This document shows positions 3,400 through 12,516 of a stretch of DNA of 44,215 bases, one piece after another. Below the pieces are notes generated by a model that was not told the DNA's origin, ran no database searches, and saw only the letters and a list, made by a program, of their open reading frames with translations. Position numbers and translations under genes: made by a program. Source of the DNA: Deltaproteobacteria bacterium (lineage in GTDB: Bacteria > Desulfobacterota > DSM-4660 > Desulfatiglandales > B25-G16). Numbering within the stretch: the stretch's first letter is position 1; each line of letters starts with the position of its first letter. The stretch lies in assembly GCA_020351915.1 (NCBI GenBank), contig CP070673.1:3650284-3694498 (forward strand). Reading direction: 5' to 3'.

Positions 3400-4398
3400 G
3401 TGATTCATTTCAAGTCTCTGACAATGGAAAATGAAATCATAGCCGGGGATTCCAAGGCCAAACTTCAAAACAACGATACGAGCACGAGGCTCGCACGCGA
3501 GCTGGGTCTTGGCGCAGCGATGTCGGTCGGTGTCGGGGTGATGATCTGTGCCGGCATCTTTGTGTTACCCGGGATTGCCGCCAGCAAGGCCGGACCTGTG
3601 GTCATCTTTGCCTTTTCTCTCTGTGGCCTGGTCGCGGTCCTTATCGCAACGTGCATGGCCGAGCTATCTACTGGCATGCCGCTAGCTGGTGGTGGTTATC
3701 TGTTCGTGGTACGGGCCTTCGGTCCACCGCTGGGTGCTGTTATGGGGTGGTGCCTTTGGCTGAGCCTGGTGTTTGCGTCGGCCTTCTACATGGTTGAGTT
3801 CGGATACTATGTAGCGGATGTTCTGGGCATATCCCCCGTCATACTTGCCCTTACAGTAACAGCCTTGCTGACCGGGCTCAACTATATCGGCGCTAAAGAG
3901 ACCGGTGGCACTCAAAACGTCATTGTAGCAGGGCTCCTCGTCATCCTTCTCTTCTTTTTCCTCCGCGCTGTGTTCGCTCTTGATATAGAGAACTTACGTC
4001 CTCTAGTACCACCTGAGATCGGTTTCTCTGGGTTCCTCACCGTTACGCCTGTGTTATTCATAACGTTTCTGGGTTTTGCTGAAATTGCCGCTATTTCCGA
4101 AGAGATCAAGAATCCTGGACGCAACTTGCCGCTGGCGTTGGTCGGTTCGGTTATCGTAGTGACCCTGATTTACTGTGCAGTCGAGTTCTGCGTGGTAGGA
4201 ATGCTTGTCTACAACGACCCGACCATGGCGAGCGAAACCGTGCTTATGGAACTGGCGCGTACACTCATGGGGCGAACGGGCCATGTTCTGGTTCTGTTAG
4301 GAGGCATTCTTGCCACCGTTTCGTCCGCTAATGCCAGCATCATGGCTGCCTCTCGAATCAGTTTCGCTATGGGGCGCGATCACCTGATGCCCGACTAG
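3400..4398 (+). CDS. APC-family amino acid permease, N-terminal part, ended by an in-frame amber codon
   Basis: The 332 readable residues form about nine hydrophobic segments of an amino acid-polyamine-organocation permease. The first carries the family's glycine-rich unwound helix (GVGVMICAGIFVLPG), and the later segment FAEIAAISEEIKNPGRNLP is typical of the family. Reading stops at TAG (4396-4398) directly after GRDHLMPD. The same frame stays open beyond it to 5700 and continues the permease, so this is one interrupted gene. The GTG at 3400 is preceded by AGGA; an in-frame ATG at 3424 is an alternative start. Substrate unknown. A truncated permease of this kind would probably not be functional unless the stop is read through or is a sequence error. 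Confidence 0.8.
   Translation: MIHFKSLTMENEIIAGDSKAKLQNNDTSTRLARELGLGAAMSVGVGVMICAGIFVLPGIAASKAGPVVIFAFSLCGLVAVLIATCMAELSTGMPLAGGGYLFVVRAFGPPLGAVMGWCLWLSLVFASAFYMVEFGYYVADVLGISPVILALTVTALLTGLNYIGAKETGGTQNVIVAGLLVILLFFFLRAVFALDIENLRPLVPPEIGFSGFLTVTPVLFITFLGFAEIAAISEEIKNPGRNLPLALVGSVIVVTLIYCAVEFCVVGMLVYNDPTMASETVLMELARTLMGRTGHVLVLLGGILATVSSANASIMAASRISFAMGRDHLMPD
4396..4398 (+). other. in-frame amber codon splitting the permease-Usp gene
   Basis: This TAG is the only stop in a frame otherwise open from 3400 to 5700 (766 codons). Downstream residues FNQIHLRFRTPYRS continue the permease without a frame change. APC permeases commonly have Trp just after the MPD motif, so a single TGG-to-TAG change explains the break. 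Confidence 0.85.
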
Positions 4399-4476: not shown

Positions 4477-5700
4477 GTGATTTTGGGATCCAGCCTCGAG
4501 CTTTTGGCAGAGGTCGCGGCCTTTCTAAGTCTGCTGCTCTATGCTCTCACCTGTCTGGCCTGCATGGTCATGAGGCACGCCGGCCCTGACTGGTATCGGC
4601 CCACATTTAGAACACCGGCGTATCCCATTGTGCCCATACTCGGACTCTTGGGCTGCAGCTTCGTCATCGTTATCACAAGCCGACCAACACTCCTCATCGG
4701 CTTTGGCATAATCTCCGCGACACTTATCTGGTATATCCTGTTCTTGCGTGGTCGGACGCAACTGGTGGGCGCATCGAACATGCTATGGCACCGGAAAGTC
4801 ATCGAGCCGCTTATCGCCAGGGCTGAAAATTACATGACCGCGCGCCGCGAGGCATTTCCCGTTATCCTGGTCCCCATGGCCAATCCTCAGACAGAACGGT
4901 CACTGCTCAAGGTTGGTGCGGCTTTGGCTAGGGAACACCGTGCGCGTCTGCACCTGGTTCACGTTTTGAGCGTGCCCACTCAGACGCCGTTGGAGGCGGG
5001 CCGCATGGAGTTCGAGGAGATGCGTCACCAAAAGGAAACGCTACTGGATGTTGCGTTGCGACGCGCGGCCGACCAGGGCGTCCGGGCGTGGGGCAACGCT
5101 TTGATCGCCCACAACGTGCCCTCGGCCATCCTGAGCGTAGCAGACATGGAGGACCCTGACCTGATTCTTATGGGCTGGCATGGTGAGGTCCGGTCCCCTC
5201 GGACCCACCGCACTAATGTGGCCAATGTGCTGAAAGTTGCGAACTGCAATGTTCTGGTGCTCAAGGACAACGGTTTGAATGAGGTCCGGCGCATCCTAGT
5301 TCCCGTTGGTAGCGGTCCGCACTCGAAACAGGGATTGAGGGTGGCCCACGAGTTGGCCAAGGAATGGGGAACCTCCATTACAGCGATGGCAGTCCAAGTT
5401 GCCCGTGGGTACTCTGCCTCCCGGTCAGACTTCGATCGCGAAAGTTTGCAGTTCTTTCAAAGGTTGGCCGAAGAATTCGTCCGCGATGCCCTGACCGAGG
5501 CTGGTGTGACCGCCGAAGTGCAGGCCGTGATCGACACCGACGTCGACCAGGCTATTATCAACGCTTCTGCGAATCAGGACCTCATAATCATTGGCGCGTC
5601 GAACAATTGGTTCTTGCGCCAGTGGCTTTTCGGTTCCCTCCCTGACCGGGTGGCCAATCGTGCATCGGCCTCGGTGTTAATGGTCCGTTCGAAGGCCTGA
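4477..5700 (+). CDS. APC permease C-terminal helices fused to two universal-stress (Usp) domains
   Basis: This is the downstream part of the interrupted gene; the same frame is open from 4399, and the GTG at 4477 is only a possible re-initiation point. It begins with about three membrane helices that complete the permease core, then two tandem UspA-type domains, roughly residues 120-260 and 265-407 of this part. The second ends with a G-x2-9-G-S-type nucleotide-binding signature (GASNNW...LFGSLPDRV); the first has a degenerate equivalent (MGWHGEV...NVANVLK). Permease-Usp fusions are known; the cytoplasmic Usp pair is thought to sense nucleotide or stress state and modulate transport. No ribosome site is evident at 4477, so independent translation is uncertain. 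Confidence 0.7.
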   Translation: MILGSSLELLAEVAAFLSLLLYALTCLACMVMRHAGPDWYRPTFRTPAYPIVPILGLLGCSFVIVITSRPTLLIGFGIISATLIWYILFLRGRTQLVGASNMLWHRKVIEPLIARAENYMTARREAFPVILVPMANPQTERSLLKVGAALAREHRARLHLVHVLSVPTQTPLEAGRMEFEEMRHQKETLLDVALRRAADQGVRAWGNALIAHNVPSAILSVADMEDPDLILMGWHGEVRSPRTHRTNVANVLKVANCNVLVLKDNGLNEVRRILVPVGSGPHSKQGLRVAHELAKEWGTSITAMAVQVARGYSASRSDFDRESLQFFQRLAEEFVRDALTEAGVTAEVQAVIDTDVDQAIINASANQDLIIIGASNNWFLRQWLFGSLPDRVANRASASVLMVRSKA

Positions 5701-6128: not shown

Positions 6129-7280
6129 ATGGAAAGATTTCTCAAAGAAAAGACATCCCGCCGAGCATTTTTGAGAAGAGGCTGTTTGTCTTTGGCCTCT
6201 TTTGGAATTTATCATGGTTTATTTGACTTATTGACCAAAGAGGCATGTGGAAAAGAGAGCACAGTCTCTTTACGAGAGGCAATGTTTTATAAAAGGCTTG
6301 CCAATAATATTGTTCAGTGCGGGGTCTGTTTCCGTGGCTGTATGCTGAAAGAAGGGGGAAGAAGTTTTTGCCGCAATAAAGTGAATATTGATGGCCGACT
6401 CTACAATCTGGTCTACGGGAGACCCTCAGCAGTACATATTGACCCTATTGAAAAAGAGCCATCTCTTCATATGCTGCCTGGAACAAGTATCCTTTGCTTT
6501 GGAACTGCGGGATGCAATTTCCGCTGTAAATTCTGTCATAACTGGCACCTATCCCAGAGATCAATTGAGGAGATGAAATATGTCTATGACCTTTTGCCAG
6601 AAGATGCAGTGAAAATAGCCCTAAAGAAGGGTATTCCCACCCTATCTTTTACCTATAATGAGCCAACCAGTTTTTATGAATATGTTTATGATATTGCCAG
6701 GCTTTCCAAAAAGAGGGACTTAAGGATTCTCTGGCATTCTAACGGAGGAATGAATCCCGAACCCCTAAAGGAGCTCCTCAAATATACCGATGCAGTAACT
6801 ATCGATCTAAAGGGTTTTACTAAAGAATTCTATCGAGGCACCTCCTCTGCCCAACTTGAGCCGGTACTGAAGACATTGAGGATTATCAGAGAAGAAGGCA
6901 CGTGGCTTGAGATCGTAAATTTACTCATCCCCACCCTAAATGACAATCCTCAGGATGTGAAAGAGATGTGCCTTTGGATTAAAGAGAATCTGGGAGAATA
7001 TACACCGCTACATTTCTCCCGCTTTTTCCCCGCCTACAAGCTCACCAACCTCCCGCCAACGCCTATAGAGAAGTTGGAAGAAGCCCATAAGATTGGTGAA
7101 GGCGTGGGCTTAGAATATGTAACCATTGGCAATGTACCCGGCCATAAATATAACTCCACCTTCTGCCCCAATTGCGGGAAGAGGCTAATTCACCGTATCC
7201 ATTTTGCGGTTTCGAGTAATAAACTAGCAGAGGGGAAGTGTAAGTTTTGCGGCCATAAAATCCCTGGGATATGGAAATAG
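6129..7280 (+). CDS. Tat-leader radical SAM protein of the AmmeMemoRadiSam / PflA-like group (first paralogue)
   Basis: The 383-residue protein has a twin-arginine-type leader (TSRRAFLRR, residues 9-17, then a hydrophobic stretch). A cysteine cluster C64, C67, C71, C81 follows, then the radical SAM core with the cluster-binding motif C129-x3-C133-x2-C136. A zinc-ribbon-like CPNC...CKFC pair closes the protein. This architecture matches radical SAM enzymes of the AmmeMemoRadiSam type, relatives of pyruvate-formate-lyase activase. GAGAGGGA precedes the ATG. Its stop codon abuts the next ATG. A Tat leader on a radical SAM enzyme is odd, because these enzymes need reductant and SAM in the cytoplasm; it may act as a membrane anchor. 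Substrate unknown; no Memo or AMMECR1 partner gene lies in the window. Confidence 0.85.
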   Translation: MERFLKEKTSRRAFLRRGCLSLASFGIYHGLFDLLTKEACGKESTVSLREAMFYKRLANNIVQCGVCFRGCMLKEGGRSFCRNKVNIDGRLYNLVYGRPSAVHIDPIEKEPSLHMLPGTSILCFGTAGCNFRCKFCHNWHLSQRSIEEMKYVYDLLPEDAVKIALKKGIPTLSFTYNEPTSFYEYVYDIARLSKKRDLRILWHSNGGMNPEPLKELLKYTDAVTIDLKGFTKEFYRGTSSAQLEPVLKTLRIIREEGTWLEIVNLLIPTLNDNPQDVKEMCLWIKENLGEYTPLHFSRFFPAYKLTNLPPTPIEKLEEAHKIGEGVGLEYVTIGNVPGHKYNSTFCPNCGKRLIHRIHFAVSSNKLAEGKCKFCGHKIPGIWK

Positions 7281-9587
7281 ATGAGAAGATGCCTTATCTT
7301 TGCCATAGTGGTAATGGGCTTCAGTGGTATCGTTGTCCAGATTCTACTTTTGAGAGAGTTTTTAGTAGTCTTCTCCGGCAATGAACTGGCGATTGGGATT
7401 ATCCTGGCCAACTGGCTTATCCTGGAGGCCTTTGGCTCCCTATTTGTGGGCAAAAGGGTCGAGCACCTCAAAGAGAGGCTTGAGGCATTTGTTGGTCTCC
7501 AGCTTCTTTTCTCCCTATGTTTACCCCTGGCGGTTTATTCAATCCGAATCTTAAAGGAGCTTGTGGGAGTTATCCCTGGGCAAGGCCTGGGGATGATTAC
7601 TGTTCTATATTCCTCTTTTCTCGTTTTTGCTCCCCTGAGTATCACCCATGGGGCATTATTTACCTTCGGCTGTAAGCTATATTCCCTCCACTCCGTTTCA
7701 GAAGGTAAGGCGTCCTCCATTGGTAAGGTCTATGTTCATGAGACCCTGGGCACAATTTTCGGAGCAGTTGCCTTTACCTATCTGTTTGTCCCCTTTCTCC
7801 ATTCTGTACTGATAGCTCTGGGGGTAGCGCTTTTGAACAGCCTCTTATGCCTCCTTCTTCTGGGATCCTCTCTCCATAAATCTCTAACTAGCAGGGCTCT
7901 GGCAGGTGGGTCGCTAGTATGCTTAGTCCTGTGTGGCTATTTAATCTTTAGTCCAAAGGCAGACAAGATTCATCATCTTTCTATAAGCCAGCAGTGGAGG
8001 GGGCAGGAGGTAGTCCATTATCAGAATTCCATCTACGGAAATATCACCGTTACGCAAAGGGGTGAACAATACACTTTTTTCTCTGATGGGATTTCCATCC
8101 TTACTGCCCCGGTTCCAGATATAACCTTTGTGGAAGAGTTTGTTCATCTCCCTTTGCTTTCTCACCCCTTACCAAAAAAGGTGCTTGTTATTAGTGGCGG
8201 GGCAGGAGGGGTGATCCATGAGATTTTAAAACACCCGGTAGAAAAGGTTGACTATACTGAACTCGATCCCTTGCTACTAGAAGTTGTTCAGAGATTTCCT
8301 ACCTCCTTGACCGAAGCCGAGCTCGCTGACCCTAGAGTAAATATCGAATATCTGGATGGCCGGTTCTTTATTAAGGGGACCCCTCACAGATACGATCTGG
8401 TTCTGGTCGGCATCTCTAACCCCTCAACCCTACAGATAAACAGGCTCTTTTCTAAAGAGTTTTTCTCTCTGGTCAAGGGGAGGCTTGAGAAAGGTGGTAT
8501 ACTGGTTACAGTTTTACCTGGTTCTCTAACTTACTTAAGCAAGGAATTGGGAGATCTCAACGCCTGTATCCTTAATACCCTTAAGGGGGTTTATCCTTAT
8601 GTTCTTATTATCCCCGGGGATTTCAACCTGTTCTTGGCGTCAAGTTCAAGCGAGGTTTCTTTAATTAACCACACCCTACTTAGTCAGAGGCTAAATGAAC
8701 GTGGACTTGAGGTAAGCCTTTTGACCCCGTCTCATATAAAGTACAAATTAGCTTCCAGATGGGTGGATTGGTTCTCTGCCTCCATAAAGGGTGCCACTGA
8801 GAAGATCAATCAGGATTTCTCCCCTCTGGGTATGTTCTATAGCCTCGCATATTGGAATTCTCTGTTTTCTCCCCATACGAAGTGGCTGTTTAGATGGTTT
8901 GAACAGGTAGATCTAAGGCTATTAATTATTCCCCTTTCTATATTTACCCTGGTCTTTTTGATCATCTGTTTTAAGGGTTCAACAATATTTACAGAGCTAA
9001 GCATCCCCTTTGCCATTATGGCTTCCGGTTTTGCCGGGATGATATTTGACTTAGCATTGATCTACACCTTTCAGACACTTTACGGATATGTATTTCATCA
9101 GATAGGAGTTTTAGTGGCCGCCTTTATGGTGGGGATAGCAGCGGGAAGTTTAGCTATGACCTCCCTTTTGGAAAATGTCAAGAGGGATTTTGCCTCCTTT
9201 ATTGGGTTAGAACTGGCCTTAATTCTCTTTTCTGGGGTACTTCCGGCCATATTTCTCCTCTTTTCCCCTTACTTAGACCGCCCGGCGGTACTCTCTCTTT
9301 TCCGGGTGATCTTTCCTGCGCTCTCCTTAGTCTCCGGTCTTCTCATTGGTACCCAGTTTCCCTTAGCCAGCAAGATATATTTAAAGCGTTCTTCCGATCT
9401 TAGTGGTACCGCTGGTCTACTTTATGGAGCTGATCTTGCTGGCGGATGGTTGGGAGGGCTCCTTGGAGGGGTATTACTCTTACCGGTTCTAGGACTGATC
9501 CAAACTTGCACAGCAGTAGCCCTTCTGAAAATGATGAGCCTCCTTATACTTCTCGTCTCAGCTATCCTAAATAAGGAATTAAGATGA
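7281..9587 (+). CDS. polytopic membrane protein with embedded spermidine-synthase-like domain
   Basis: This 768-residue protein has three parts. Residues 1-225 hold about seven hydrophobic helices. About 235-530 form a soluble Rossmann-like domain related to spermidine synthases (VLVISGGAGG, then a TELDP strand end, then YDLVLVGISNP). Residues 560-768 hold a second set of helices ending in a glycine-rich LLYGADLAGG motif. It resembles the membrane-fused spermidine synthase family of unknown reaction. The two acidic residues normally found in the synthase motif YDxxxxDxxDP are Gly and Asn here, and GGGDG is changed to GGAGG, so polyamine synthesis is unlikely. It starts at the base after the upstream stop and overlaps the next gene by four bases, so the three genes are translationally coupled. 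Confidence 0.85.
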   Translation: MRRCLIFAIVVMGFSGIVVQILLLREFLVVFSGNELAIGIILANWLILEAFGSLFVGKRVEHLKERLEAFVGLQLLFSLCLPLAVYSIRILKELVGVIPGQGLGMITVLYSSFLVFAPLSITHGALFTFGCKLYSLHSVSEGKASSIGKVYVHETLGTIFGAVAFTYLFVPFLHSVLIALGVALLNSLLCLLLLGSSLHKSLTSRALAGGSLVCLVLCGYLIFSPKADKIHHLSISQQWRGQEVVHYQNSIYGNITVTQRGEQYTFFSDGISILTAPVPDITFVEEFVHLPLLSHPLPKKVLVISGGAGGVIHEILKHPVEKVDYTELDPLLLEVVQRFPTSLTEAELADPRVNIEYLDGRFFIKGTPHRYDLVLVGISNPSTLQINRLFSKEFFSLVKGRLEKGGILVTVLPGSLTYLSKELGDLNACILNTLKGVYPYVLIIPGDFNLFLASSSSEVSLINHTLLSQRLNERGLEVSLLTPSHIKYKLASRWVDWFSASIKGATEKINQDFSPLGMFYSLAYWNSLFSPHTKWLFRWFEQVDLRLLIIPLSIFTLVFLIICFKGSTIFTELSIPFAIMASGFAGMIFDLALIYTFQTLYGYVFHQIGVLVAAFMVGIAAGSLAMTSLLENVKRDFASFIGLELALILFSGVLPAIFLLFSPYLDRPAVLSLFRVIFPALSLVSGLLIGTQFPLASKIYLKRSSDLSGTAGLLYGADLAGGWLGGLLGGVLLLPVLGLIQTCTAVALLKMMSLLILLVSAILNKELR

Positions 9588-10717
9588 ACCGGAGAGATTT
9601 TTGTAGAAAATCTATATTAGGCAGCCTTGTTTTTGGTGCCTCCCTCCTGGGACTTGACCGTTTAGGCAGGCTATCTCCTGCCTATGCACGATCACAGGCA
9701 AAAGAGGCCAGGCATTACCAAAAGTTAGAGGACAGAAAAGTCTGGTGCCAGCTCTGTTTTCGGAGGTGTATTATTACCGAAGGTGGGCGTGGTTTCTGCC
9801 GGGTGAGGGAGAATAGAGGGGGCAAACTATACAGCCTGGTCTATGGAAAGCCTGGTGGCCTTCAAATTGACCCCATTGAACTGGAGCCGATGTATCATAT
9901 GCTTCCTGGACACCGCAATCTCTGTGTTTATACTGCCAGTTGTAATTTTAGATGCCGACACTGTCATAACTGGCATATCACTACCCAAAGCCCTGAAGGG
10001 CTAAGAAGCATGAATTACTCACCAGAAGAAGTAGTCCAAGAGACAATAAGACGAGGGTGTAAGTCTATTTCACACAGCATAAATGAACCTACCATCTTCT
10101 ATGAGTATATGTATGATATCGCCAAATTAGCTCGGGCTAAGGGCATCAAGAACCTCTTTCATACTAACGGGGCGATGAGGCCTGAACCTTTAAGGGTGTT
10201 ACTTAAGTATATGGACGGGGTTACCGTTGACCTGAAGGCATTTGATAAGAAGTTTTATAGAAAGATTTCCTCTGCTAAACTTGAGCCGGTGCTTAAGACC
10301 CTGAAAATTATCAGAGAAGAAGGGGTGCATCTGGAGATCGTAAATTTGATTATTCCAACGCTAAATGATGAGCTGGATAAGATAAAGGAAATGTGTAACT
10401 GGATTGGAGACAATCTGGGGGAAGATGTCCCCTTGCATTTTACTCGCTTCTTCCCGGCCTATAAGTTGACTAATTTACCCTATACACCAGTAAAGACCTT
10501 AGAGGCTGCAAGGAGCACCGGTCAAAAAGTAGGATTGAAATACGTCTATATCGGCAACCTTCCCGGACATGAGGGCAATAATACTTACTGCCCACAGTGC
10601 AAAACGAGACTGATTCATCGTATTCATTTTATTGTAATGAGTAGCAATATAAAAGGAGGAAGGTGCGGGTTCTGTGAATATAAGATCCCTGGTATCTGGG
10701 ATCTGGAAGAGCCTTGA
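9584..10717 (+). CDS. Tat-leader radical SAM protein of the AmmeMemoRadiSam / PflA-like group (second paralogue)
   Basis: This 377-residue protein is a clear paralogue of the one at 6129, sharing long blocks such as DPIE, CHNWH, EIVNL and RFFPAYKLTNLP. Its leader NRRDFC (residues 2-7) is followed by a hydrophobic stretch and a possible AYA cleavage site near residue 35. Cysteines C55, C58, C62 and C72 precede the radical SAM motif C120-x3-C124-x2-C127, and CPQC...CGFC pairs lie near the C-terminus. The ATG overlaps the stop of the membrane protein (ATGA), with AAGGAATTAAG upstream. Having two diverged copies on either side of one membrane protein suggests a heteromeric complex or two successive reactions; this is inference. 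Confidence 0.87.
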   Translation: MNRRDFCRKSILGSLVFGASLLGLDRLGRLSPAYARSQAKEARHYQKLEDRKVWCQLCFRRCIITEGGRGFCRVRENRGGKLYSLVYGKPGGLQIDPIELEPMYHMLPGHRNLCVYTASCNFRCRHCHNWHITTQSPEGLRSMNYSPEEVVQETIRRGCKSISHSINEPTIFYEYMYDIAKLARAKGIKNLFHTNGAMRPEPLRVLLKYMDGVTVDLKAFDKKFYRKISSAKLEPVLKTLKIIREEGVHLEIVNLIIPTLNDELDKIKEMCNWIGDNLGEDVPLHFTRFFPAYKLTNLPYTPVKTLEAARSTGQKVGLKYVYIGNLPGHEGNNTYCPQCKTRLIHRIHFIVMSSNIKGGRCGFCEYKIPGIWDLEEP

Positions 10718-12030: not shown

Positions 12031-12516
12031 ATGAAGCGTTCACCTTCTCGAAATGTCGTAATAAAAGGAACACTGGTTGAAGGAATAAAGGAATCAGGCC
12101 TTTTCATGAGTATCCCTTGGGTCAGAGAGCAATTCATAGAGAAGCTGGGCGTTGATCCATACCCAGGGACTCTTAACCTGGAGATCAAAGATTCTCAAGA
12201 CCTCGACAAGCTCACGGAGCTTAAAAGCCGAGCAGGCATTGACATACTCCCTATGGATCCAGGATTCTGTTCAGCAAAATGCTTTCATGTGTTGATATGC
12301 GGAAAGGTAAAGGGGGCAATCGTTATTCCCCTAATTGATGACTATCCCGAATCCAAATTAGAGATCATCGCCTCAGAAAGGCTCAAGGATCTCTTGTCGC
12401 TTAAGGTAGGCGATATAGTACTAATAGAAATCGATTTAGGAAATAGGTCTGAAAGAAATGGGGTCAGGTCCTCCAGGAAGACGGCGGGCAAGCCTACACT
12501 TGTGACAACATGGTAA
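12031..12516 (+). CDS. DUF120 / CTP-dependent riboflavin-kinase-like protein with repeat-derived tail
   Basis: Residues about 8-133 match the DUF120 fold of archaeal CTP-dependent riboflavin kinases (RibK), which convert riboflavin to FMN. The hallmark is DPYPGTLNLEI near residues 44-54, and the C-terminal part LEIIAS...LKVGDIVLIEI is also typical. Bacteria normally use the unrelated ATP-dependent RibF, so this archaeal-type protein suggests horizontal transfer or a different flavin-related role. The last 20 or so residues are not part of the domain: they are encoded by a copy of the 24-bp repeat unit (12467-12490) and its flank. No strong ribosome site; translation is probably coupled to the gene ending at 12024. 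Confidence 0.75.
   Translation: MKRSPSRNVVIKGTLVEGIKESGLFMSIPWVREQFIEKLGVDPYPGTLNLEIKDSQDLDKLTELKSRAGIDILPMDPGFCSAKCFHVLICGKVKGAIVIPLIDDYPESKLEIIASERLKDLLSLKVGDIVLIEIDLGNRSERNGVRSSRKTAGKPTLVTTW
12467..12490. repeat. single copy of the 24-bp hairpin unit
   Basis: It starts GGTCCTCCAGG and ends ACGGCGGGCA, matching the units at 2945-3016. It is preceded by GGGGTCA and lies inside the coding frame of the riboflavin-kinase-like gene, which it extends. Confidence 0.75.

Follow-up and report, generated by a model that had tools for sequence, protein, structure and literature searches.

Two Tat-leader radical-SAM proteins and a membrane protein with a spermidine-synthase-like domain form a conserved gene trio: a possible extracytoplasmic relative of the AmmeMemoRadiSam system

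We analysed a stretch of 44,215 nucleotides from a Deltaproteobacteria bacterium (contig CP070673.1, positions 3,650,284 to 3,694,498 of the forward strand), hereafter called the window. Three plus-strand open reading frames, designated A, B and C, follow each other head to tail at positions 6129-10717 (Table 1). The TAG stop codon of A is directly followed by the ATG of B, with a 0-bp gap, and the ATG of C overlaps the TGA of B, giving a 4-base overlap. These junctions, initially described as overlapping or abutting, were confirmed and recur in related genera. Genomes G010 and G012 both have joined orthologues of A and B; in G010 the C orthologue overlaps the 3' end of B in the same manner as in the window, and in G012 B is cut by a contig break and the C orthologue begins another contig. 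Since the genes downstream of C in G010 are unlike those in the window, the three genes behave as a conserved unit. Comparison with orthologues from related genera gave dN/dS values of 0.19-0.31 for A, B and C, indicating purifying selection. With both junctions and constraint kept in related genera, the arrangement of the trio is not due to chance. A promoter scan gave nothing above chance, and a search of the intergenic gaps for a precursor peptide or RNA returned chance-like small ORFs only, with no Rfam match in the window. Elsewhere in the window, an APC-type amino-acid permease is seemingly split over two ORFs (3400-4398 and 4477-5700), the second of which extends past the permease part, as might result from a frameshift, a stop or a pseudogene. 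Positions 12031-12516 encode a CTP-dependent riboflavin kinase domain (PF01982), here in a bacterial genome; this family is best known from archaea.

Table 1. Features of the A-B-C locus, in window coordinates.
Feature	Position	Strand	Description and basis
Gene A	6129..7280	+	TIGR04337 radical-SAM protein, 383 aa; 338 bits, PF04055, R3 lineage
Tat-type leader of A (about residues 1-41)	6129..6251	+	SRRAFLRR; from sequence, low-confidence in model
CX3CX2C cluster motif of A (C129, C133, C136)	6513..6536	+	Invariant in 40 homologues
Gene B	7281..9587	+	Membrane protein, 768 aa; TM1-7, spermidine-synthase-like domain, TM8-14
TM1-7 of B (residues 2-223)	7284..7949	+	From model; TM1-6 homologous to TM9-14
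Spermidine-synthase-like domain of B (residues 224-541)	7950..8903	+	Predicted extracytoplasmic; Foldseek, charge bias
GGGDGG position of spermidine synthases	8196..8210	+	GGAGG in B (Asp to Ala); alignment to 1iy9, 6o65
Catalytic DxxDP position of spermidine synthases	8409..8423	+	GISNP in B, both acids gone
TM8-14 of B (residues 545-763)	8913..9569	+	Model, charge bias, repeat homology
Gene C	9584..10717	+	Second TIGR04337 radical-SAM protein, 377 aa; 337 bits, R2 lineage
Tat-type leader of C (residues 1-35)	9584..9688	+	NRRDFCRK...SPAYA; from sequence
CX3CX2C motif of C (C120, C124, C127)	9941..9964	+	Sequence; homologue alignment

A and C belong to the AmmeMemoRadiSam radical-SAM family, with TIGR04337 scores of 338.4 and 336.8 bits (cut-off 220), a match to PF04055 and the CX3CX2C motif in each; the two proteins are 54% identical. 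Across 40 homologues, 11 cysteines are invariant. The predicted structure of A (pLDDT 91.5) found its best PDB match in PflA (3cb8/8fo0, TM 0.78-0.80 on PflA), and PFLA models matched A and C weakly, with scores far under their cut-offs. The PflA-like, AmmeMemoRadiSam identity and the shared cysteine layout proposed in the initial annotation thus both stand. No viral relatives of A were found. In a careful tree, A groups with upstream partners from many phyla (clade R3) and C falls in clade R2, together with the middle gene of Bacteroidales operons in which three radical-SAM genes precede B and with the second radical-SAM gene of operons in which two follow B; the first radical-SAM gene of such operons comes from a third clade, R1. 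A recent tandem duplication was ruled out, since the clades of A and C are distinct and supported and include relatives from other phyla. By their sequences, A and C represent two old, separately kept paralogue lineages, which points to differing roles.

Both proteins start with an RRxF motif followed by a moderately hydrophobic stretch, as in Tat substrates, and the genome encodes TatC. The same trend was seen in the full-length radical-SAM proteins whose genes adjoin B: all 88 have an N-terminal hydrophobic stretch, and 80 of them carry the motif R[RK]x[FLIVY]. In the operons with a B of about 700 aa, described below, the leader motif is mostly TRKEFLK, with RK instead of RR. Leaderless TIGR04337 proteins also exist, two in the window genome (L001, L005) and eight more among 30 sampled loci taken with 1.5 kb flanks, and none of them lies beside B. 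TatC was present in 20/22 genomes with RR leaders versus 4/10 with non-RR leaders (Fisher p=0.005), a comparison of 32 classable genomes, three mixed loci being left out, that are metagenome bins, some of them incomplete, and include related, non-independent species. RR leaders have a Tat-like low hydrophobicity, and non-RR leaders are more hydrophobic, resembling Sec signals or anchors. Loci L119, L123, L129, L160, L172 and L184 come from genomes without a TatC match, and their B-linked radical-SAM leaders are Sec-like or anchor-like, not RR. The Tat leaders recognised initially on A and C are therefore conserved and co-vary with TatC, and export of A, C and the partner radical-SAM proteins is well supported by sequence. 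The non-RR homologues remain a difficulty: if Sec carried them across the membrane unfolded, cluster assembly would have to follow on the outside, and we know of no route for it there.

The membrane protein B matched PF01564 over residues 285-445 (95.7 bits) and passed NF037959, the model for fused MFS/spermidine synthases (49.5 bits, cut-off 40). It failed the speE model (102.7 vs 249.55 bits) and scored below the PRK03612 cut-off. Its AF2 model (mean pLDDT 93.3) consists of seven transmembrane helices, a spermidine-synthase fold and seven further helices, 14 in all. In Foldseek searches the domain matched the spermidine synthase structures 1uir/3anx with TM scores of 0.71-0.74 on target. The earlier description of a 768-residue membrane protein with a SAM-binding-type fold was borne out by both PF01564 and the model. 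An hhalign comparison found TM1-6 homologous to TM9-14 (probability 98.9%, E 2e-17), so that the body of B is predicted to be a 6+6 MFS-like repeat; two additional helices, TM7 and TM8, bracket the domain. Loops assigned to the inside contain on average 19 K/R against 4.6 for those assigned to the outside, and the inside density is higher in 51/51 sequences. This positive-inside bias, together with the 6+6 repeat, places the domain outside, and we infer an extracytoplasmic location.

Both DxxDP acids and the GGGD aspartate that mark SpeE are absent from the window B and its near relatives; a clade of 700-aa B proteins retains DLPDP at the DxxDP position. The acids E and D (of YxELDP and DGR), expected to hold the adenosyl part, are near-invariant in the B family, and N387/R388, beside the site, are invariant specifically in this family. 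A separate, normal SpeE is encoded elsewhere in the window genome (G000:C1:1657294). With the catalytic acids lost and a true SpeE at hand, B was ruled out as the spermidine synthase of the cell; according to the model it is spermidine-synthase-like in fold, and we do not class it as a spermidine synthase. The initial suggestion of a polyamine-like substrate is weakened. The same genome contains a large fused relative, a 1165-aa frame (G000:C1:2682357-2683826, minus strand) that combines a spermidine-synthase-like domain with a region matching the second membrane half of B.

B homologues (E < 1e-40) were detected in 137/395 genomes sampled across the phylum. One GTDB genome scan, queried with a set of closer homologues, gave 80 named B loci under about 17 phylum labels, those of metagenome bins being not fully reliable. 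From 138 distinct B loci, we counted the neighbours in the 100 with enough flank. Because the loci were drawn by homology to B, the counts describe the neighbours of B and not those of all radical-SAM genes: a radical-SAM gene lies within 600 bp in 72/100 loci, on the same strand in 69, and AMMECR1 or Memo within 5 kb in 29/100. The 28/100 loci with no adjacent radical-SAM gene indicate that B may have other partners. According to a quick tree, the partners of one B clade are TIGR04337 proteins and those of another belong to a second Tat-led radical-SAM family, which suggests that B plays a role in what radical-SAM enzymes share, namely SAM and its products. Proteins of this second family measure about 360 aa, match PF04055 and, in the member tested, no NCBIfam model (examples at L132 10314-11378, L139 10276-11364 and L142 10307-11371, among others). 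At L200, L202, L208, L212 and L217, Tat-led radical-SAM genes form divergently transcribed pairs without B, each family apparently contributing one member. SagB-like nitroreductase-family proteins adjoin B at L167 10311-10985, L181 10370-11044 and L163 191-1000, the L163 copy bearing a signal sequence, and in Spirochaetales such a protein sits between B and the second radical-SAM gene. Beyond single lineages, the B neighbourhoods contained no recurrent biosynthetic gene that would name a substrate; a glycyl-radical enzyme was neither present in the operon nor recurrent in the neighbourhoods. B and a leader-bearing radical-SAM protein co-occur in dozens of genomes, and the gene set is common to anaerobes of many phyla. 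The joint function that the initial annotation read from the tight coupling of the trio gains support, and the outcome that would have told against it, dispensable non-Tat leaders on genes that do not co-occur elsewhere, was looked for and did not appear. Our analysis goes beyond that annotation in the link to exported AMMECR1 and Memo, the outside placement of the B domain, the loss of the spermidine-synthase acids, the second radical-SAM family partnering B, and the old paralogy of A and C.

AMMECR1 and Memo were not found among the window genes scanned, and genomic matches of both families lie elsewhere. In the order to which the window genome belongs, the operon typically reads AMMECR1 - B (about 700 aa) - radical-SAM gene, and the genome holds it too (C1:4270224-4274250, minus strand, L040). 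Given this canonical operon, the window trio appears to be a second, derived copy without adjacent AMMECR1 or Memo. Other lineages have the order B - radical-SAM gene - Memo/AMMECR1 fusion, again with signal sequences, which Memo proteins beside B and a radical-SAM gene carry as well, and the AMMECR1 and Memo proteins of relatives' operons pass TIGR04335 and TIGR04336. AMMECR1 proteins adjoining B carry a hydrophobic, signal-like N-terminal stretch before the conserved domain in 13/13 loci judged by eye. In the window genome the sole AMMECR1 has a signal sequence, as does one of the two Memo proteins (L060), so that the whole system seems to lie outside. Beside B - radical-SAM - Memo/AMMECR1 genes at L090 4556-7003, L091 1273-3723 and L112 2437-4831, we observed a Tat-led DUF362-like protein and a NapG/NapH-like polyferredoxin, a possible outward electron route.

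The reading we favour, tentatively and at slightly less than an even chance, is that the trio encodes an extracytoplasmic AmmeMemoRadiSam variant in which A and C are exported by Tat and B is a membrane partner serving the cofactor side. A and C would fold and acquire their iron-sulfur clusters in the cytoplasm, and their leaders would then direct them through Tat to act at the outer surface of the cytoplasmic membrane. The MFS-like body of B and its two extra helices would hold the adenosyl-binding, spermidine-synthase-derived domain outside; B would most likely carry SAM to the exported enzymes, or take up 5'-deoxyadenosine or methionine, and dock A and C. The latter probably catalyse two steps, or act as a hetero-pair, on one extracytoplasmic substrate, for which a peptide or an envelope lipid is our guess. 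A cofactor role is suggested by the adenosyl pocket being kept while the catalytic acids are lost, by the separate SpeE and by the two radical-SAM partner families. The bolder proposition is that radical-SAM catalysis itself occurs outside the cytoplasm, the two specialised paralogues being exported together with their clusters, and that MFS-like B, with its outward SAM-binding domain, supplies them with SAM across the membrane, a dedicated route of cofactor export with no known counterpart; this is possible but on balance doubtful. Radical-SAM enzymes require SAM and low-potential electrons, which are generally believed to be available in the cytoplasm only; to our knowledge neither has an established source outside it, and polyferredoxin or DUF362-like genes adjoin B in a few loci only, which counts against an extracytoplasmic reading.

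B could instead be an extracytoplasmic transferase that attaches an aminopropyl, a 3-amino-3-carboxypropyl or some other group derived from SAM to a lipid or peptide modified by A and C, the three proteins being steps of a single surface-molecule pathway. The fold of the domain would suit such an enzyme, and the acids retained by the 700-aa clade, beside AMMECR1 and a radical-SAM gene, fit a transferase better than a carrier; N387/R388 could form a new catalytic set. We nevertheless consider a transferase somewhat unlikely, as these acids and the GGGD aspartate are gone from the window B and its near relatives, no conserved biosynthetic neighbour accompanies B and two different radical-SAM families partner it. 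An all-cytoplasmic alternative, in which the leaders are membrane anchors only and A and C work on the inner face beside B, would place them where SAM and reductant are and would agree with the plain anchor-like leaders of some homologues. The low hydrophobicity of the RR leaders and their co-variation with TatC, the signal sequences of the AMMECR1 and Memo partners and the charge bias that puts the B domain outside make it improbable. Least probable is that A and C are activases for an exported glycyl-radical enzyme, in which they would generate the glycyl radical, and that B has no part in catalysis: the fold of A matches PflA best and PFLA models do match weakly, but the scores stay far under cut-off and such an enzyme is missing from the operon and does not recur in the neighbourhoods.

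If these widely shared radical-SAM enzymes are indeed exported, cells would have to deliver SAM to the outside or draw on another source there. Within the open-access literature searched, we know of no exported radical-SAM enzyme that is established, and radical-SAM chemistry is otherwise known to us from inside cells, where cofactor and electrons are. AMMECR1 and Memo have human homologues linked to disease and a molecular role that is unsettled; an exported form would offer a handle on both, since their substrates would then be expected in the envelope or periplasm. No description of an exported AmmeMemoRadiSam form or of the B partner was found in the open-access literature. Such gene contexts may have been noticed earlier by Burroughs and colleagues, whose 2019 JBC paper, cited in PMC7159879, reportedly treats Memo gene contexts.

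Three known systems invite comparison. With PflA, A shares the fold and CX3CX2C; it differs by its Tat leader, by an N-terminal CxxCx3Cx9C and C-terminal CxxC...CxxC motifs and, unlike PflA, by having no glycyl-radical enzyme nearby. B shares MFS-like halves and the spermidine-synthase fold with the fused MFS/spermidine synthases of NF037959 and PRK03612, from which its lost catalytic acids and its genomic partnership with exported radical-SAM enzymes set it apart. The locus resembles the AmmeMemoRadiSam system (TIGR04335, TIGR04336, TIGR04337) through the TIGR04337 membership of A and C and the AMMECR1 and Memo proteins in relatives' operons. The differences are the leaders or signal sequences on its parts, the added membrane protein B and, at the window locus, two radical-SAM paralogues and the lack of AMMECR1 and Memo, which makes the trio a relative of that system rather than a complete member.
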